Shown in pieces: positions 5,311-52,981 of a stretch of 64,000 nt of DNA. This DNA is from Meghimatium bilineatum (taxonomy: Eukaryota > Mollusca > Gastropoda > Stylommatophora > Philomycidae). Position numbers and translations under genes: made by a program. The notes beneath the pieces are model-generated. The model saw only the letters and a program-made list of their open reading frames with translations, was not told the DNA's origin and did no database searches. The stretch lies in assembly GCA_034231615.1 (NCBI GenBank), contig CM067315.1:31401407-31465406 (forward strand), given 5' to 3'. Numbering within the stretch: position 1 is the stretch's first letter; each line of letters starts with the position of its first letter.

Positions 5311-6542
5311 TTGCTGCTGTAAATATGGCTTTATTTTTATTAAGGATGTGAGCTGTCAAGGATGTCAAGGATGTGGGCTGTCAAGGATGTTGGCTGTCAA
5401 GGATGTGGGCTGTCAAGGATGTGAGCTGTCAAGGATGTGGGCTGTCAAGGATGTGGGATGTCAAGGATGTGAGCTGTCAAGGATGTGAGCTGTCAAGGAT
5501 GTGAGCTGTCAAGGATGTCAAGGATGTTGGCTGTCAAGGATGTGAGCTGTCAAGGATGTGAGCTGTCAAGGATGTGAGCTGTCAAGGATGTCAAGGATGT
5601 GGGCTGTCAAGGATGTTGGCTGTCAAGGATGTGAGCTGTCAAGGATGTGAGCTGTCAAGGATGTGAGCTGTCAAGGATGTGAGCTGTCAAGGATGTGGGC
5701 TGTCAAGGATGTGAGCTGTCAAGGATGTGGGCTGTCAAGGATGTTGGCTGTCAAGGATGTGGGCTGTCAAGGATGTGGGCTGTCAAGGATGTGGGCTGTC
5801 AAGGATGTGAGCTGTCAAGGATGTGGGCTGTCAAGGATATTGGCTGTCAAGGATGTTGGCTGTCAAGGATGTGGGCTGTCAAGGATGTGGGCTGTCAAGG
5901 ATGTGAGCTGTCAAGGATGTGAGCTGTCAAGGATGTGAGCTGTCAAGGATGTGGGCTATCAAGGATGTGGGCTGTAAAGGATGTGGGCTGTCAAGGATGT
6001 TGGATGTCAAGGATGTGGGCTGTCAAGGATGTGGGATGTCAAGGATGTGGGACTTCAAGGATGTGGGATGTCAAGGATGTGGGACTTCAAGGATGTGGGA
6101 TGTCAAGGATGTGGGACTTCAAGGATGTTGGACTTCAAGGATGTGGGATGTCAAGGATGTGGGACTTCAAGGATGTGAGATGTCAAGGATGTAGGACTTC
6201 AAGGATGTGGGATGTCAAGGATGTGGGACTTCAAGGATGTTGGACTTCAAGGATGTGAGCTGTCAAGGATGTCAAGGATGTGAGCTGTCAAGGATGTTGG
6301 CTGTCAAGGATGTGGGCTGTCAAGGATGTTGGCTGTCAAGGATGTGGGATGTCAAGGATGTGGGCTGTCAAGGATGTGGGCTGTCAAGGATGTTCGCTGT
6401 CAAGGATGTTGGCTGTCAAGGATGTTGGCTGTCAAGGATGTGGGCTGTCAAGGATGTGGGCTGTCAAGGATGTGGGCTGTCAAGGATGTGGGCTGTCAAG
6501 GATATATTTGCTGCTGTAAATATGGCTTTATTTTTTATTAAG
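5311..6542. repeat. 16-bp minisatellite bracketed by a direct repeat
   Basis: About seventy copies of a 16-bp unit, 'ggatgtgggctgtcaa', fill 5344-6503. Variants are GAGCTG, TTGGCTG and GGACTTC. A block at about 6045-6250 alternates 'gggatgtcaag' and 'gggacttcaag' forms, giving a 32-bp higher-order unit. Some boundaries lose seven bases ('ggatgtcaaggatgt'). The array is bracketed by near-identical 34-bp copies of 'ttgctgctgtaaatatggct...ttattaag' at 5311-5343 and 6508-6542. It sits in KAT6 intron 5. Open frames here (CQGCGLSRMWAVKDV repeats) are artefacts of periodicity. Confidence 0.95.
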
Positions 6543-6740: not shown

Positions 6741-6836
6741 CATGAGTGACTGTGTGGTGACTTCCTTGTCGTGACATGAACTCATTTCTCTGAAGTGACA
6801 GGTTCTCCAATCTACACTGGGAGCATTCCCAAATCC
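6741..6836 (-). CDS. KAT6: KAT6 exon 5 (C-terminal half of PHD2)
   Basis: A 96-nt exon completing the second PHD finger. With the split Gly codon from exon 4 it reads G-I-W-E-C-S-Q-C-R, giving the conserved Trp and the last two zinc cysteines (about C452 and C455 of the joined protein). Human KAT6A has KG-MWICQICR at the same place. It continues with about 25 less conserved residues and ends in phase 1 at ATG|GTTAGT, matching exon 6. The acceptor is AAG (TTTCTGAAG|GG) with a modest pyrimidine tract, so the 5' edge is the least certain part. Double PHD fingers of KAT6 bind acylated lysine 14 and the N-terminus of histone H3. Confidence 0.85.
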
Positions 6837-7452: not shown

Positions 7453-7984
7453 CAGAAGGTTATGCTCAGGTACATTTCCAAATCAAGCGACCAAATGTGT
7501 CATAGCCCAAAAACCGATTGTAATTCAATCCTGTGACACTTGGGATTTGGGATAGTCATATTTTTGTTGATTTCTCTCAGTGTTTCTCATGGCCCATCTG
7601 TTCAGTCAAGTCTCTTTCTCATAGCTAGGTGTGTTTGAATGGCCAGAATCCATTGTATAATAGTTCTGACTTTATACAATTACAGACTATAAGCGATAAA
7701 CTTGTTTATTTAAAATAAAAATGTAACTGGTACAAGTCTTAATAGTTATTTCTTGTTACATGTCTTTAGTTAAACAAAGCAATAGAAGAAAGGAGTTGTT
7801 TAGTCTGAGGATTTGTTATTTAGGATGATTTCAGAAAAGGGTTTTCTAAGCAGTATAATTTTGTTATATAAAATCATACACTTGTGTGCCCGCTTAACAG
7901 GGAAGTACAGAGGGGTTGCGCTATATTACTTTTAACTATATTAAGTTATGATTAATCATGTTTACTTTTAATCCTAATTCTTAC

Positions 7985-8146
7985 CTGATTTCTTCTTGAC
8001 AATGGAAGGATTATGACAGTTCATTTGATAATTCTTATGTGATGGCTTCTTGACAATGGAGGGATTATGACAGTTCATTTGATAATTCTTACCTGATGGC
8101 TTCTTGACAATGGAGGGATTGTGACAATTCATATGATAGCCTTTAT
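7985..8146 (-). repeat. 54-bp triplication spanning the exon 4 splice donor
   Basis: Three tandem 54-bp copies, each holding the last ~43 nt of KAT6 exon 4 plus the first ~11 nt of intron 4. Donors by copy, reading on the minus strand: copy 1 has TCAG|GTAAGAATTA, copy 2 has GG changed to CA so the GT is lost, and copy 3 again has TCAG|GTAAGAATTA. All copies keep one open frame, encoding repeats of Y(H/Q)MNCHNPSIVKK. Using the copy 3 donor (after 7985) instead of copy 1 (after 8093) would add 108 nt, or 36 residues, in frame inside PHD2. Confidence 0.9.
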
Positions 8147-8174
8147 CGCAACCATCACAAAATAGCATCTGATC
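8093..8174 (-). CDS. KAT6: KAT6 exon 4 (central part of PHD2)
   Basis: An 82-nt exon from acceptor 'tttctgataaaacag|GATC' to donor TCAG|GTAAGAATT. It encodes DQMLFCDGCDKGYHMNCHNP and then SIVKKPS, ending in phase 1. It supplies the middle zinc ligands of PHD2 (about C426, C429, H434, C437). Human KAT6A reads [20 protein letters not shown] here. The preferred donor is the first of three tandem copies, because exon 5 then restores normal finger spacing (KKPS-G-IWEC). The open frame does continue in frame through 7985, so a longer alternative exon with a 36-residue insert is possible. Confidence 0.92.
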
Positions 8175-8344: not shown

Positions 8345-8600
8345 TTGAGAGGATTAAAGCACTGAGTACTGATTTAGTCATACTGTTCGAGTACTGATTT
8401 AGTCAAGTTGTCTGAGTACTGATTTAGTCAAGATGTCTGATTATTGTTGTAGTCAAGTTGTCTGAGTACTGATTTAGTCGTTTTCTAAGTATGGATTTAG
8501 TCATATTGTCTGAGAACTGATTTAGTCAAGTTATTTGAATACTGATTTATTCAAGTTGTTTAAGTATGGATTTAGTCATATTGTCTGAGAACTGGTAGGT
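8345..8600. repeat. 25-bp minisatellite in KAT6 intron 3
   Basis: About nine to ten degenerate units of 'ctgagtactgatttagtcaagttgt', 24-26 bp each. It is entirely within the 753-bp intron between exons 3 and 4. Confidence 0.85.
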
Positions 8601-8639: not shown

Positions 8640-8870
8640 CTATATCCTTATTACTATTTGACACAACACTATTTAACAATAAGACCTATACTTGACACGA
8701 CATTAATTGACAGATTACTATTTGACACACTACTTTTTGACATCAGACTATTTGACAAGACACTATTTGACATTAGTATTTGACACACTACTATTTGGCA
8801 TGACACCATTTGACATAACACTATTTGACACCATACTATTTGACACAACACTATTTGATACTACTATTAT
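8640..8870. repeat. minisatellite of 'actatttgacacaac' type
   Basis: Irregular units of about 14-18 bp built on 'actatttgacac', some reading 'tttgacatcag' or 'ttggcatgac'. It is separated from the 25-bp array by only 40 bp, so two unrelated arrays fill most of the same short intron. Short open frames on either strand reflect the repeat. Confidence 0.85.
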
Positions 8871-8927: not shown

Positions 8928-9040
8928 AGGATCACCAGCATCCTGACACACGCAGCAAGTCTTGCAGTCCATGCATTGCCACGGACCTCTGTAAGCTCTG
9001 GTAGCTAGGAGATTCGAGTAACTCATACATGATGGATGGG
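8928..9040 (-). CDS. KAT6: KAT6 exon 3 (PHD1/PHD2 junction)
   Basis: A 113-nt exon with acceptor 'gtttgattgacag|CC' and donor CCT|GTAAGACTT. The phase 1 start completes Ala with exon 2. It then encodes HPSCMSYSNLLATRAYRG, PWQCMDCKTCCVCQDAGDP and ends in phase 0. It contributes the last PHD1 ligands (about H384, C387, C405, C408) and the first PHD2 ligands (C411, C414). Human KAT6A reads HPSC...LRWQCIECKTCSSCRDQG. The spacing from exon 2's second Cys pair to H384 is four residues, exactly as in the human protein, which supports the join. Confidence 0.93.
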
Positions 9041-13142: not shown

Positions 13143-13338
13143 CTTTAGCTGCACAATCTTTACAGTGCAATAGTTCTTCAGCCACACCTTTAGAGCTGCA
13201 CTGAGAAGTCAGCTTGCAAAAATCACAGATGGGTTCACTAACAGTGGAGCCTTTTCTCGTTTCCATTTTCTTTGGCATTTTCTGCTCAGCTCCATCTGAT
13301 GAGAGCCCATGACTGTCACTAGAACGTATTCTTTTCAC
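13143..13338 (-). CDS. KAT6: KAT6 exon 2 (N-terminal half of PHD1)
   Basis: A 196-nt exon from acceptor 'gttttattgttatttcag|GTG' (phase 0, matching exon 1) to donor AAAG|GTGCTC (phase 1). It encodes VKRIRSSDSHGLSSDG, a basic linker KMPKKMETRK, then EPICDFCKLT and EELLHCKDCAAK. The cysteines at about 355, 358, 376 and 379 are the first four PHD1 ligands. Human KAT6A has PICSFC...EELLSCADC. The donor is a weak GTGCTC; no better one lies nearby, and the join to exon 3 gives canonical finger spacing. It lies about 17.8 kb downstream of exon 1 and 4.1 kb upstream of exon 3. Confidence 0.92.
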
Positions 13339-31124: not shown

Positions 31125-32075
31125 CTTTGAGTGTACTGATGATCCAGTCCCTGATGGTGCTGAAGTAGTTGAGGTGGATCCTGCAGTCTGCGAAGTTGAA
31201 ACTGGAGGTCTATGCTTTGGAGGTCTCCCACGTCTTGCTGGCTGTGCTGCACTAGAAGCTGTAGCTGTGGATGTTGCAGGTGTTGGTGTAGATGTTAATT
31301 TTGTATGGTGGTCAGAACATGATGTTGAAGGCTGGTCAGTTTGTGATGAAAACTTGTGGTCATTTACAATACTATTATTGCTGTTTTCCTCACTAGCGCT
31401 CGTGCCATTGGATCCGTTATGACCGCCAATTGGCGATTCTTGCGATTTATTCTCCAACTTTTTATTGCTTTTTAGTGGTTTAATAGTTTTGTCTGATATT
31501 TCTTGCATTTGGGCAGTCGTAATAATATAATTACAGCTCATCAGTCGTTTTATGCGCCCTGCATCAATCTCCCTTTTCAAAACAACGGTCAGGGGGCTTC
31601 TCAAGCTATCAAATCCATCACAATTGTCTCTGAGCCAAACATTTATACTATCCAATGTTACACCGGTCTCTGAAGCAAATACACGTACATTGTTCTCATT
31701 TTCTGATGTATTATCCTTATTTTCTCCATCCTGCGCTTGTTTTGTATCATTCTCTTTAATATATTTTCTGGATAACTCTAAAATGGCTTCCAATATTTTT
31801 GTGGAAATAGTAGTTGAATTGAGTACAGCGCACCCCAACATACTCTTTCTCCATTTCGCTGCGTTACGGTAGCTTATACTGCCTTTATAGTCAACTTTAA
31901 TCACGATTTCAGCGTCAACTAATTTCTCCAGTTTAACTTCTGTATCAGCTGCGCAGAGACCATACCTCCTTCTTACCACATGACAAATGCGCTGCAAATC
32001 GGGACGGGCTTTCCTTCGTCTCAAATGGTCGATCGTTTCCAATATCCACTCGGTATGTTTAGAACTAGTAGCCAT
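31125..32075 (-). CDS. KAT6: KAT6 exon 1 (winged-helix domains, AT-hook)
   Basis: Encodes residues 1-317 of a KAT6/MOZ-type histone acetyltransferase. ATG at 32075 has G at -3 and +4; an AG 5 nt upstream leaves room for a 5' UTR exon. Residues 8-78 (TEWILETIDHLRRRKARPDL...KGSISYRNAAKW) match the first winged helix of KAT6A (TEWILEAIKKVKKQKQRPS...NKGLNSYKD). This domain binds unmethylated CpG DNA in vertebrate KAT6A. Residues about 85-205 (VFASETGV...SPLTVVLKREIDAGRIKRL) match the H15-like second domain. A Ser/Thr-rich linker follows, with an AT-hook-like RRGRPPK at 281-287. The donor AAG|GTTGGC is weak but phase 0 fits exon 2. Confidence 0.93.
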
Positions 32076-43775: not shown

Positions 43776-44134
43776 ATTTTGGATTGTTCATAAAAGATTC
43801 TATTTTGATTGGTAAATAATCATTTACAATTTTTTTTAAATTATACATACAAATCTATATTTTAGGCATTAAAAAAAAAAAGCTGGGAATATAAATGAGG
43901 AGAAATTAACATTTCGTGTGGCTTCTGAAATTACATGGCATGTAAGAGAAAAAAAAGGCAATTTTAAATATTCTCATTATATGATATTCAGGTCAAACGA
44001 ATACTGAATAAAACATAACAATAAGTTTGTTGGTTCTTTCCTAGTAGAAGCCAATACACTGTTTATGTTTTTAATCCACTTTTTCCATAGTCACTGCATA
44101 TGACAATTGACTGGTATTCGTTGTTACATACAAT
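43776..44134. other. nothing assignable
   Basis: AT-rich, with an 'aaaaaaaaaaagctggg' tract; no gene or repeat family recognised. Confidence 0.5.
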
Positions 44135-45825
44135 AACAAACATGGTAGTTACATACAATAACAAACATGGTAGTTACATACAATAACAAACATGGTAGTT
44201 ACATACAACAACAAACATGGTAGTTGCATACAATAACAAACATGGTAGTTACATACAATAACAAACATGGTAGTTACATACAATAACAAACATGGTAGTT
44301 ACATACAATAACAAACATGGTAGTTACATACAATAACAAACATGGTAGTTACATACAATAACAAACATGGTAGTTACATACAATAACAAACATGGTAGTT
44401 ACATACAATAACAAACATGGCAGTTACATACAATAACAAACATGGCAGTTGCATACAATAACAAACATGGTAGTTACATACAATAACAAACATGGTAGTT
44501 ACAAACAATAACAAACATGGTAGTTACATACAATAACAAACATGGTAGTTACATACAATAACAAACATGGTAGTTACATACAATAACAAACATGGTAGTT
44601 ACATACGATAACAAACATGGTAGTTACATACAATAACAAACATGGTAGTTACATACAATAACAAACATGGTAGTTACATACAATAACAAACATGGTAGTT
44701 ACATACAATAACAAACATGGTAGTTACATACAATAACAAACATGGTGGTTACATACAATAACAAACATGGCAGTTACATACAATAACAAACATGGTAGTT
44801 ACATACAATAACAAACATGGCAGTTGCATACAATAACAAACATGGTAGTTACATACAATAACAAACATGGCAGTTGCATACAATAACAAACATGGTAGTT
44901 ACATACGATAACAAACATGGTAGTTACATACGATAACAAACATGGTAGTTACATAGATAACAAACATGGTAGTTACATACGATAACAAACATGGCAGTTG
45001 CATACGATAACAAACATGGTAGTTACATACAATAACAAACATGGTAGTTACATACAATAACAAACATGGTAGTTACATACAATAACAAACATGGTAGTTA
45101 CATACAATAACAAACATGGCAGTTACATACAATAACAAACATGGCAGTTGCATACAATAACAAACATGGTAGTTACATACAATAACAAACATGGCAGTTG
45201 CATACAATAACAAACATGGCAGTTGCATACAATAACAAACATGGCAGTTGCATACAATAACAAACATGGTAGTTGCATACAATAACAAACATGGCAGTTG
45301 CATACAATAACAAACATGGTAGTTACATACAATAACAAACATGGCAGTTACATACAATAACAAACATGGTAGTTACATACAATAACAAACATGGTAGTTA
45401 CATACAATAACAAACATGGTAGTTACATACAATAACAAACATGGCAGTTGCATACAATAACAAACATGGTAGCATGGCAGTTGCATACAATAACAAACAT
45501 GGTTGTTACATACAATAACAAACATGGCAGTTGCATACAATAACAAACATGGTAGTTACATACAATAACAAACATGGCAGTTGCATACAATAACAAACAT
45601 GGTTGTTACATACAATAACAAACATGGCAGTTGCATACAATAACAAACATGGTTGTTACATACAATAACAAACATGGTAGTTACATACAATAACAAACAT
45701 GGTAGTTACATACAATAACAAACATGGTAGTTACATACAATAACAAACATGGTAGTTACATACAATAACAAACATGGTAGTTACATACAATAACAAACAT
45801 GGCAGTTGCATACAATAACAAAAAT
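44135..45825. repeat. 25-bp satellite-like array, ~67 copies
   Basis: Units of 'gttacatacaataacaaacatggta' with very low divergence over 1.7 kb. Common variants are GTTGCATAC, ATGGCA and ATACGATAA. In the right half, 'ggtagttacatac' and 'ggcagttgcatac' units tend to alternate, a nascent 50-bp higher-order unit. One partial unit occurs at 45470. Open minus frames (HVCYCMQLPCLLLYATAMF) are periodic artefacts. Confidence 0.97.
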
Positions 45826-45906
45826 GACAAACGGTCAAGTTTGAGTCTCCCCAGAAATAAGCAGGAATCGGTTGTTTCTACAAAGCAAACAATGTACTAC
45901 CTGTTG

Positions 45907-48960: not shown

Positions 48961-51900
48961 CTATATCTGTAATTCTGTCTCCTTAATAAAACTCACTGTC
49001 TTTTGTAGTTCATACAATGTCCCATAGAGCTTTGATTCCAGTGTTGTTTCCTCTGGCCAATATGTCTGCCTCAGCGTTTCATGCTCAGAACACTCTTGAA
49101 GTATATGTTTGGCACTCTGTGCTGCCTGTCCACATGTACACATGGCCGTGTTGCCAATCTTGAACTTTGTATACATGTGACTGCGGAGTCGGTTGTGTCC
49201 TGTTCTGAGACGTAGAATTATAACTTGTTCTGATCTGTTCATATTGTGATAGTCATCTTGTGTTGGTGTTTGTGGCTTTCTTATTGACTTTATCATCAGT
49301 TTTTTCTGATGGTAGGTGATTGGTATATCTGGTTGGTCTTCAGCAGCACCTTCCTTAGCCAGTTGGTCTGCTTTTTCATTTCCTGGTATTCCACAGTGAG
49401 AGGGTATCCACTGCATGGTTACCCTATACTGGTAAGACAATTCGCTAAGTAGTTTTTTTAAGTCTGTTAGTTTTCCAGACTGGAGAGCTTGAAGCACTGA
49501 CCTTGCATCTGTCAGGAATACCACAGGCTGTAGGTCAGAGTTGGAGTTCAGCAGTTTTTTAGCTGCAACACTAATTGCCTGGATTTCTGCATCATAATTA
49601 TTGCAGAATTTTCCTGTCGGTGTTCTGATTGTATCTCTAGGCTTGTGTGGATATTCTATATATACACCTGCACCTCCATTCCTCACAGCATTCTGTGCTG
49701 ACCCATCTGTGTACACTCTGACCCATATATCTTGTGGATATTCCTCATCCAGGAAACTGAGGGTGACTGTCATTCGCTGCACACTGTTCTGTTCGTCCTC
49801 GCTTAGTATTCCTTTCACATGGGTCTGAATGTATATTGGCATTCCATGGCTTTCACTCCACGGGGTTTGCTCTGGTACAGACCTTAAGGGGCTGTCAACT
49901 TCAGGTAGGTCTGTAAGTTGTCTATGGAGTCGTTTAGCTTGATGGATAAAGCTGCTCCTTTTCAGTCGTCCCATTGCTAGATTTTGGAATCTTTCCTTCA
50001 TTGGATGACTTGGCATACACTGAAACTTTTCTGCTTGAATTAGTACTTTTGTGTCTCTGCGTTCGCCAAGTGTTTGCATTCTTCCCATTTTCTGCATCTC
50101 TGCTATGGGTGTTGATTTCATTGCTCCCAACATTATTCTAAGTGCCTGGTTTTGCACTTTATCTAGATCTTGTAATGTGGTGTTTGATGCAGGACACCAC
50201 GCAGCTGAACCGTATTCCAGGTGTGGTCTTATGCCTTGCTGGTAAACTTTACTGAGTATATTTCCACTGGCTCCCCATGTGGTTCCACTTAGTTTTCTCA
50301 GGATAGCTAGCTTCCTCCTGGCTTTTGTTGTTGCTTTGTTTATGTGCTGCTTCCATGTCAGCTTATCATCAAAAGTAACTCCGAGGTATGTGGGTTGTTT
50401 GTCTTCTTTCAAGAGCTCTCCATCTATCTTGATATGACCAGCTTTCTGTTTTGGTGAGAGGGTAAAGAGTGTAGTGCTGCACTTATATGTGTTAATGCTG
50501 ACGCACCATCTATTAGCCCATAAGGTTAGGGCATCAATAGCTCTTTGTATTTGTTTAGTGGCCACTGTTGCATGTTCTTCCGTGCACCAGATCACCAGGT
50601 CGTCAGCATACATTGCCACTTTGATCCCGTGTGGTAGTTCAGCAACTAGGTCATTGATGTAAACCAAGAAAAGTGTGGGTGACAGGACTCCTCCCTGGGG
50701 GACTCCATGACGCAGTAGAACTTTCTTGCTCTTGCGACCATCTAATTTTACCCTGGCTCTTCTATTATGCAGGTATGCTTTTACCCATTTGTACATTCTT
50801 GAGCTAACCCTGCAATTTCGCAATTTCTTTAGGAGCCCTTCTTTCCAGACCTTATCAAATGCTTTCCTGAGGTCTATCCATGCTGCTAGTACCAGTTTCT
50901 TTTCTTGGAAGGCATCCTCAATCACTTGGGAGAGGTAGGTTGCCTGATCTTCAGTAGAGTAGCACTGTCTGAAACCTGCTTGCTGTGATACCAGAAGGTT
51001 TTCACTTTCAAGGTACCACTGCATCCTAAGATTGATAATGCGTTCCATTGTTTTACATAGGCAGCTTGTGAGGCTGATGGGCCTGTAGTTGGAGACTGTG
51101 TTGCCATCTTTTCCTGATTTGAGGAGTGGTATCATTATTGCTCCTCCCCACGCCTGTGGTACATTACCTGTGGACCAGCTTGTGTTAAAAATCTGCAGTA
51201 GCTTTGCTCTTGCTGCACTTCCCAGGTTTCTAATCATTTCATTGGACACTCCATCAGCTCCAGGGGACTTTTTCATTTTCAATTTGGATATTGCATGCTC
51301 CAGTTCTCTCATTGTGATTGGTGCCTCCATGACTTCAGGTATAGGTTCACCTTGTCCAATGTTTTGCTGGTTCTCTCGAACCTCCTGTTGTTTGTCTGGG
51401 CTGACTTTGACGTTATTGTCTTCTGCAAAGGAATCTGCAAAGTAATCAGCTGCATGTTTACCTGTTAAAATGTTTCTATCTTTATAAAGTGTGATCCTGG
51501 TATTTCTCCCTGTACCTTCATCATTTAGTTGTTTTACAAGTTTCCATAATTTCCTAGTATCTCTTTCTAGGTTCAGCGACTCTGTTTTTTCTTTCCAGCT
51601 GCTCCGTCTGGCTTGTAACTTGGCTCTTTGAAATTTAGCCTTTGTTTGCTGATATTTGTTGTGATGTTCTTGGCTAGGTCTGTTCTCAGCCTGCTGTCTA
51701 GATGTTTCCATCTCATTTTGCAGCTTTTCCAGTTCATCATTCCAGTAGGGTTTGTAGTTTTTGCGTGCTCCCCTGGGTATGGTTTTACTAGCAGCATGTA
51801 GTATACATCTATTAAATTCACTCACTGCTCTATTGATGTCTTTGTCCAAGTTCATGTCCTTAGCTAGAACACTGGTTAAATGCTGGTACATTTTCCAGTC

Positions 51901-52812
51901 TGCCCTTTTATAGTTCCACCTAGTGAGCGTGCTGCCGTCCGTGGTAAATTCATTGTGGATTTCCAGAAATACTGGTCTGTGGTCACTACCTCCAAGCTGC
52001 TTTCCAACAACACGTGTGATGTTCCATTCCAAGCCTGGTGAGTGGAATGCTAGGTCTGGTGTAGAGGTGATGTGCCATGCTCTCGAGTAGAAGGTTGGTG
52101 AGTCTGCTGGCTGGTTAATAAGGATGAGATTATTTTCATCCTGCCAGCTCTCAAGTTCCTCACCTCTCTTATCGATATGATCGTAGCCCCAGCTCTGAGA
52201 GTGGCTGTTGAAGTCACCACACACCATAAGTCTCTCTTTGTCTGGAATTGTGTCTAGTGCCAATGGTTTATCATTTGGGCAGTAGTAGTTCAGGAGATGG
52301 AATTCTGCACTGTCTGTTTTTAGGTGGAGCATCTGGTATTCTGCCCCTTCCATATATACTTCCAGCTGACATGCGCTGATATTGTTTTTAACAAGTGTCA
52401 GAATTCCACCCTTTCGCCTGTCCTTTCTGTCAGATCGGTAGCACTGGTAGCCTCTGATTTTGAAGGCTATGTCGCTGCTGAGGTGTGTTTCTTGGATACA
52501 GCATATGTTAACTTGTTCTTCACTGAGGACATTTTCAAGTTCCAATTTTTTGCTGTATCCATCTCTTTTACTGTTGACACCCTCAGCATTCCAGTGCATT
52601 ATTTTTATTGGTCGTTTGTTTGTTTGGCCAGTAGCTCTATTCCCTTGCCTCCTGGCTCCTCTGGGCAATTGAGAAGGACTTCCAGTAACTGAGGTTGGGC
52701 CCTTTCGAGGTATAGGGCCCGGCACCGTCCCTGCCTGAACGTCCGCCACAGGGCAGGCACCATAACTATTTATAGATGTAGACATGTTTCCATTGTGTTT
52801 TGTGCGTGGCAT
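48961..52812 (-). CDS. LINE polyprotein: endonuclease, RT, RNase H
   Basis: A 1,283-residue protein for target-primed reverse transcription. Residues about 1-65 are Ser/Pro/Gly-rich. About 68-290 is an exonuclease-endonuclease-phosphatase domain: HWNAEGV, CIQETHL, VCGDFNSHSQSWG and GGSDHRPVFLE hold the expected Asn, Glu, Asp and His. About 490-800 is reverse transcriptase: KSPGADGVSNEM, YRPISLTSCLCK, AAWIDLRKAFDKVW, HGVPQGGVLSPTLF and the catalytic YADD (VAMYADDLVIW). About 1020-1150 is RNase H: VYTDGSAQNA, YDAEIQAIS, FLTDARSVL and WIPSHCGIPGNEKADQLA supply the D-E-D-H/D set. A C-terminal CTCG...HILQEC motif resembles the zinc finger of related elements. No internal stops or frameshifts, and every catalytic motif is intact. 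Confidence 0.95.
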   Translation of the reverse strand: MPRTKHNGNMSTSINSYGACPVADVQAGTVPGPIPRKGPTSVTGSPSQLPRGARRQGNRATGQTNKRPIKIMHWNAEGVNSKRDGYSKKLELENVLSEEQVNICCIQETHLSSDIAFKIRGYQCYRSDRKDRRKGGILTLVKNNISACQLEVYMEGAEYQMLHLKTDSAEFHLLNYYCPNDKPLALDTIPDKERLMVCGDFNSHSQSWGYDHIDKRGEELESWQDENNLILINQPADSPTFYSRAWHITSTPDLAFHSPGLEWNITRVVGKQLGGSDHRPVFLEIHNEFTTDGSTLTRWNYKRADWKMYQHLTSVLAKDMNLDKDINRAVSEFNRCILHAASKTIPRGARKNYKPYWNDELEKLQNEMETSRQQAENRPSQEHHNKYQQTKAKFQRAKLQARRSSWKEKTESLNLERDTRKLWKLVKQLNDEGTGRNTRITLYKDRNILTGKHAADYFADSFAEDNNVKVSPDKQQEVRENQQNIGQGEPIPEVMEAPITMRELEHAISKLKMKKSPGADGVSNEMIRNLGSAARAKLLQIFNTSWSTGNVPQAWGGAIMIPLLKSGKDGNTVSNYRPISLTSCLCKTMERIINLRMQWYLESENLLVSQQAGFRQCYSTEDQATYLSQVIEDAFQEKKLVLAAWIDLRKAFDKVWKEGLLKKLRNCRVSSRMYKWVKAYLHNRRARVKLDGRKSKKVLLRHGVPQGGVLSPTLFLVYINDLVAELPHGIKVAMYADDLVIWCTEEHATVATKQIQRAIDALTLWANRWCVSINTYKCSTTLFTLSPKQKAGHIKIDGELLKEDKQPTYLGVTFDDKLTWKQHINKATTKARRKLAILRKLSGTTWGASGNILSKVYQQGIRPHLEYGSAAWCPASNTTLQDLDKVQNQALRIMLGAMKSTPIAEMQKMGRMQTLGERRDTKVLIQAEKFQCMPSHPMKERFQNLAMGRLKRSSFIHQAKRLHRQLTDLPEVDSPLRSVPEQTPWSESHGMPIYIQTHVKGILSEDEQNSVQRMTVTLSFLDEEYPQDIWVRVYTDGSAQNAVRNGGAGVYIEYPHKPRDTIRTPTGKFCNNYDAEIQAISVAAKKLLNSNSDLQPVVFLTDARSVLQALQSGKLTDLKKLLSELSYQYRVTMQWIPSHCGIPGNEKADQLAKEGAAEDQPDIPITYHQKKLMIKSIRKPQTPTQDDYHNMNRSEQVIILRLRTGHNRLRSHMYTKFKIGNTAMCTCGQAAQSAKHILQECSEHETLRQTYWPEETTLESKLYGTLYELQKTVSFIKETELQI

Positions 52813-52981
52813 CCTGATTATCTGTGCGCCTTTTGGCTGGATGCCTCCGTCTTCAGCACTCTGCTTACTAGGGCAGGACTAGGGTCCTGCTCGAGTGGGA
52901 CTGCCCGACCAGTCTTAGTTTCCAGCCCCTGATGGCTGAACTAAGCCCCATCACCTCTGCACGGTGCTGGTCTCGATGGAG
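52813..52981 (-). promoter_or_regulatory. LINE 5' UTR, presumed internal promoter
   Basis: GC-richer than its flanks; begins CTCCATCGAGACCAGCACC immediately after the target duplication. LINEs of this group carry internal pol II promoters in this position. No specific element is identified. Confidence 0.5.

Follow-up and report, generated by a model that had tools for sequence, protein, structure and literature searches.

What becomes of a gene when a tandem duplication copies one of its splice donors? In the window, a 64,000-nucleotide stretch of the Meghimatium bilineatum genome analysed here as a whole, a 54-bp unit is repeated across the end of exon 4 of a gene with a double PHD finger (DPF), and two of the three copies carry a putative live donor. 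We analysed which gene is affected, how the repeat could have arisen, which donor would be used, and what the longer product would mean for the second PHD finger (PHD2). The coordinates of all features are collected in Table 1.

Identity of the gene

The winged helix encoded by exon 1 matched the Pfam profile SAMD1_WH (PF21524) with an E-value of 5.3e-29 at profile positions 1-63 of 63. Among solved structures its best match was atherin/SAMD1 (E-value 9.3e-23), while KAT6A scored 3.5e-8. The double PHD finger (exons 2-5, with the long form as the query) had KAT6A as its best solved match (1.9e-27) and also matched d4 (1.8e-24) and PHF10 (3.5e-22). A SAM domain is encoded by two exons, found by protein search 7.6-9.2 kb downstream of exon 5 on the same strand, beyond the window, and ending with a TAA stop codon. 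When joined, these exons matched PF00536 (2.2e-8), and SAMD1 was the best of the solved matches (1.9e-20).

The MYST catalytic domain gave at least 10 MOZ_SAS matches genome-wide among the 24 best candidates scored, and none of these 10 was on contig C18, which carries the window gene. Contig C24 contained, in order and on one strand, a winged helix (4.7e-4), two DPF exons with KAT6A as the best solved match (2.5e-27), and at least three MYST matches. Since these elements follow one another there, we take the C24 locus to be the KAT6 gene of this genome. Its winged-helix exon is 24% identical to the winged helix of exon 1. About seven 7-residue repeats (SQTKSLS-like) are located past the winged helix in that exon (C24:34160530-34160817 region).

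The initial annotation had assigned the window gene to KAT6. This identity was rejected on the basis of the SAMD1-type winged helix, the downstream SAM domain, the lack of C18 among the locations of the MYST matches listed, and the location of KAT6 on C24. The window gene looks like a winged helix-DPF-SAM gene, the order and strand of the exons suggesting that its PHD and SAM parts belong to one transcript. The phases do not match, exon 5 ending in phase 1 and the SAM exon apparently beginning in phase 2, which implies at least one further exon between the two; in the interval between the DPF and SAM exons, open frames of at least 45 codons were inspected by eye. Among the literature matches listed for SAMD1 with PHD fingers, from which the fly protein Lint-O surfaced, no title or opening part of an abstract named a winged helix-DPF-SAM protein. 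On another contig, a 360-aa open frame contains a further SAMD1-type winged helix (42% identity; C19:16677526-16677804); the DPF and SAM protein searches of the genome listed no match on C19.

Table 1. Coordinates of the repeat, exons, and splice donors (window positions, except for the SAM exons; a slash marks the exon end)
Feature	Position	Strand	Description
Tandem array	7977-8138	minus	three 54-bp copies, head to tail, straddling the exon 4/intron 4 border
Repeat copy 1	8085-8138	minus	zinc-ligand His retained (YHMNC), live donor
Repeat copy 2	8031-8084	minus	His to Gln, donor destroyed (AGGT to ACAT)
Repeat copy 3	7977-8030	minus	His to Gln, live donor identical to donor 1
Exon 1, from first ATG	31125-32075	minus	SAMD1-type winged helix; donor AAAG/GTTGGC, phase 0
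Exon 2	13143-13338	minus	PHD1, first half; 3' end CTAAAG/GTGCTC
Exon 3	8928-9040	minus	PHD1, second half, and PHD2 start; 3' end GATCCT/GTAAGA
Exon 4, short form	8093-8174	minus	donor 1; intron position apparently ancestral
Exon 4, possible long form	7985-8174	minus	donor 3; 36 additional codons
Exon 5	6741-6836	minus	PHD2, last CxxC; acceptor CTGAAG/GG, donor CATG/GTTAGT
Donor 1 GT	8091-8092	minus	in copy 1
AT at would-be donor 2	8037-8038	minus	in copy 2
Donor 3 GT	7983-7984	minus	in copy 3
SAM exons	C18:31400404-31400517 and 31398939-31399082	same as window gene	protein search

Structure of the tandem array

TRF reported a single array at 7975-8138 with a period of 54, 3.0 copies, and 90% matches. 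A repeat finder likewise returned three copies, spaced by 54 and 54 bases, whose identities to the reference copy were 91% and 89% (56 bases compared). A 39-base degenerate pattern made from the copies, with up to 3 mismatches allowed, had 3 matches in the window and a mean of 0.00 in 100 shuffles, which rules out a chance origin of the repeat. Of the 54 bases in each copy, 46 correspond to exon 4 and 8 to the start of intron 4. The presence of three copies across this border, as initially annotated, was confirmed by both programs and by the pattern search, although the range of 7985-8174 given for it corresponds to the long form of exon 4 and not to the extent of the array.

The copies differ from each other at 5 (copies 1 and 2), 6 (copies 1 and 3), and 5 (copies 2 and 3) of 54 bases. 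The 401-bp array region had only itself as a match in the 1.61-Gb assembly, in a search that ignores simple repeats and very common words. The sequence is known from a single assembly, and an artefact that turned one copy in the animal into three could be imagined; it is most improbable, since mis-joining of identical copies would not produce differences at 5-6 of 54 bases in each direction. The ends of the unit have TA alone in common (TATCA at the start and TAGGA after the end), which is what slippage or end-joining would leave. The Jukes-Cantor distances between the copies were 0.099-0.120, suggesting an age of about 25-30 million years at an assumed rate of 2e-9 substitutions per site per year.

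Splice donors and reading frame

The sequence TCAG/GTAAGAATTA is present after 8093 and after 7985, and the corresponding site of copy 2 reads TCACAT. Donors 1 and 3 are identical across 14 bases (TCAGGTAAGAATTA), are located 108 nt apart, and share the acceptor of exon 5 and the reading frame. The frame is open into exon 5 from either of them, giving 479 aa (donor 1) or 515 aa (donor 3) up to the end of this exon. In calculations of pairing with the U1 5' end, donors 1 and 3 had energies of -11.1 kcal/mol each and were the top two of the 55 GT sites between 8174 and 6837. The next-best GT site of exon 4 and intron 4 had -5.0 kcal/mol, the dead donor 2 had -1.4 kcal/mol, and the donors of exons 1, 2, 3, and 5 ranged from -4.3 to -5.4 kcal/mol. 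Accessibility, predicted without a shuffle control, was higher for donor 3 than for donor 1 in all three settings, both for the 9-mer (0.225 versus 0.021, 0.105 versus 0.010, and 0.040 versus 0.010) and for the GTAA 4-mer alone.

These data agree with most of what had been initially proposed for the donors. The identity of donors 1 and 3 and the loss of donor 2 were borne out by the sequences of the three copies, the phase of both live donors relative to exon 5 by the open frames, and the 36-residue insert and the placement of C437 and C452 by the translation.

Order of the duplications

The intron position was compared with that in three other DPF-type genes of the genome, labelled by their best solved matches: KAT6 on C24, d4 on C23 (DPF3, 4.9e-34), and a PHF10-type gene on C25 (PHF10, 1.1e-13). 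The apparent donors of KAT6 (CCAAAAG/GTAAGA) and d4 (CCTGAAG/GTCAGT) correspond to donor 1 in both codon and phase, and their U1 pairing energies were -9.5 and -7.6 kcal/mol. The PHF10-type exon is uninterrupted here and has no intron. An intron at this position in two of the three relatives makes donor 1, in the simplest view, the original site; copies 2 and 3 look derived and were presumably added towards the intron. The unit's second codon encodes the zinc-ligand His in copy 1, KAT6, and d4, and Gln in copies 2 and 3; because His occupies the ligand position in both relatives, Gln is a derived and shared state. Together with two more changes common to copies 2 and 3 relative to copy 1, it fits a scenario of duplication, divergence, and a second duplication. 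Gene conversion among the copies could mimic such a two-step pattern.

We propose that in this SAMD1/Lint-O-type chromatin gene a 54-bp piece comprising the last part of exon 4 and the first eight bases of the following intron was tandemly duplicated, probably in two steps, from one to two and then to three copies, so that the donor was copied with it. The donor of copy 2 would then have died, leaving two identical strong donors. A different process, intron gain by tandem duplication, in which a duplicated AG/GT yields a new intron with its own acceptor (described in PMC2891723), was ruled out because no new acceptor is involved: the donor alone is new, KAT6 and d4 have their intron at this position too, and both forms would use the acceptor of exon 5.

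Effect of the insert on PHD2

Splicing from donor 3 instead of donor 1 would increase the number of residues from C437 to the next ligand from 14 to 50. The insert consists of two more 18-residue repeats, each with Gln at the position of the His ligand. It is located in the linker ahead of the last CxxC and removes no zinc ligand, and the segment just N-terminal to IWECSQC is nearly unchanged, with KKKSG in the long form for KKPSG. In PHD fingers the spacing ahead of the last CxxC is generally 12-46 residues. The Pfam PHD score was 55.0 bits for the short form and 54.1 bits for the long form, in which the best PHD match covers the profile up to position 41 of 47 and does not reach the last CxxC. 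On PHD1, a weak PHD_4 match that scored under Pfam's cut-off was reported for the short form only.

Given the longer spacing and the match ending at position 41, the last CxxC would have to close over a long loop. Because the insert leaves every zinc ligand in place, a loss of function cannot be deduced from it, and PHD2 can probably accommodate it as a loop; we consider tolerance at least as likely as damage. The expectation of the initial annotation that the insert would disturb the finger was not supported, as all the ligands are kept and the added residues fall within the linker. Its wording that this is the finger reading acylated H3 was imprecise and does not hold for PHD2 alone: PMC3902925 reports no enhanced H3K14ac binding by the PHD2 of MOZ alone, both fingers being required.

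Selection on the copies and tandem arrays in the genome

In a neutral simulation, the observed changes (three shared, two and three private) were placed randomly in 100,000 trials, with two assumed ancestors. The 36 codons remained open and the 8-base core of donor 3 remained intact in 26-28% of the trials for each ancestor. With such a probability (P = 0.26-0.28) obtained without any use of donor 3, the open frame and the intact donor do not show selection. The share of synonymous base changes was 3 of 8, with 18.5% expected (P = 0.17), or 3 of 6 if counted as events (P = 0.08). Selection on copies 2 and 3 was supported neither by the simulation nor by the synonymous share, and neither showed clear constraint.

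Tandem arrays made up 10.1% of 214,000 bases, and those with periods of 20-200 made up 8.5%, in a non-random sample consisting of the window and 15 10-kb stretches near the studied genes. With arrays covering about a tenth of this sample, donors caught in repeats would be expected to be not uncommon here.

Several other repetitive elements were recorded. Intron 3 contains, just before exon 4, arrays at 8362-8594 (25 bp x 9.4) and 8653-8858 (15 bp x 13.6) with other consensus units, and long minisatellites are present in the window at 5363-6503 (16 bp x 72.6) and 44123-45826 (25 bp x 67.9). Near the d4 PHD exon, an array at L043:3869-4120 (three overlapping TRF rows) includes several MAGGTRAG motifs that resemble donors and lie antisense to the gene. 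A 1305-codon open frame at 48964-52878 (minus strand) with endonuclease, reverse transcriptase, and RNase H domains is probably a non-LTR retrotransposon.

Choice between the donors

We favour, with a probability of roughly 0.55, the reading that the repeat has created two competing donors which are both used, donor 3 to a substantial extent, and that the insert is tolerated. The spliceosome would most likely use both sites, and the intron-proximal donor 3 would account for a substantial, perhaps the major, part of splicing, so that PHD2 would be made with either spacing after C437. Regulation of this choice is probably absent. When 5' sites are duplicated, the intron-proximal one is reportedly favoured, a result attributed to Reed and Maniatis and to Eperon. 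In DOK7 minigenes, the distal 5' site was less strongly suppressed once a copy of the stronger proximal site had been placed there, as reported in PMC5585400. In a set of 1,816 alternative 5' exons described in PMC2423196 the usage split was bimodal, which makes one-sided use of the donors quite possible.

Donor 3 could have become the main or only donor, so that the protein normally has a 36-residue repeat-encoded linker inside PHD2, a tentative possibility; repeats on the intron side would in that case have given rise to a fixed extension of the exon, and the copied His ligands would already have been lost, the full ligand set coming from copy 1 only. Almost exclusive use of donor 1, with copies 2 and 3 being plain intron and donor 3 a silent decoy, seems somewhat unlikely. 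This agrees with the position of donor 1, common to KAT6 and d4, with the 82 nt of the short-form exon 4, an ordinary size, and with the simulation, in which an intact donor 3 and an open frame needed no selection; however, donor 3 matches donor 1 over 14 bases, is nearer to the acceptor, and is predicted to be more accessible. A regulated switch, in which the choice between donors 1 and 3 depends on tissue or stage and adjusts how the double PHD finger reads histones, is improbable. Related double-PHD genes are altered by splicing, for example in DPF3a and vertebrate d4 isoforms (reported in PMC11678306), but no significant sign of selection was found in copies 2 and 3, and fly Lint-O with eight PHD cysteines changed still represses its targets (PMC9535798). 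Moreover, the donors are identical and the sequences upstream of them are similar, which leaves little for a regulator to distinguish.

The locus is a clean natural test of 5' splice-site choice, in which identical donors with one acceptor and the same frame are separated by a dead copy. The effect of donor position could be read from junction counts alone, without engineering.

Comparison with known systems

Repeats that extend over an exon border are a familiar type of accident, and alternative splicing driven by them is documented in human genes. Exon-intron boundary repeats in human segmental duplications gave 27 intron modifications, 66% of which had support from repeat-retaining transcripts (PMC2812944). 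The array analysed here is likewise a tandem repeat across an exon border, in this case copying a splice site. The human boundary repeats vary among recent paralogs and have transcript support, whereas this array has no second match in the assembly, has copies diverged by 9-11%, and is known from genomic sequence alone. The arrangement of two nearby donors and one acceptor resembles intron 4 of DOK7, but the DOK7 donors are 11 nt apart, unequal, and frameshifting (PMC5585400), while those of the window gene are identical, in frame, and 108 nt apart.

Splicing may alter the zinc-finger region of the window gene as it does in DPF3a/DPF3b and other d4 isoforms: DPF3a lacks the D4 domain apart from one half of PHD1, and in certain vertebrate d4 isoforms a C2H2 finger contains a 14-residue insertion (PMC11678306). 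According to the same source, the d4 isoforms arise through alternative last exons or acceptors, exons that are extended and terminate early, and exons that are skipped or included, whereas here a repeat-copied donor would be responsible.

As regards domain layout, the window gene combines a winged helix with a double PHD finger, as KAT6A/B (MOZ/MORF) do, but apparently has SAM instead of MYST. Its winged helix and SAM domain resemble those of SAMD1/atherin, their best match among solved structures. The SAMD1 of vertebrates is not known to have PHD fingers. In mammals, the winged helix enables SAMD1 to bind unmethylated CpG islands, and its SAM contacts L3MBTL3 (PMC11343471). The nearest known layout is that of fly Lint-O (CG2662), which has two PHD fingers and SAM and represses genes together with L(3)mbt via SAM. 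Vasa and aub remained repressed when eight PHD cysteines of Lint-O were changed, and deletion of the PHD region abolished the binding of L(3)mbt (PMC9535798). The window gene differs in having a winged helix; the passages on Lint-O considered here describe none, and the term 'WH domain' is absent from PMC9535798. BLAST gave SAMD13 as the human ortholog of Lint-O, an assignment doubted by its authors (PMC9535798). The winged helix-DPF-SAM architecture, compared at the level of layouts alone, points to SAMD1 as the human relative of Lint-O. If the exons indeed form one gene, it would unite a winged helix and a SAM domain of the SAMD1 type with a double PHD finger and thereby connect SAMD1 to fly Lint-O. 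This architecture is arguably more useful than the repeat itself, and the corrected identity of the gene is of wider import.
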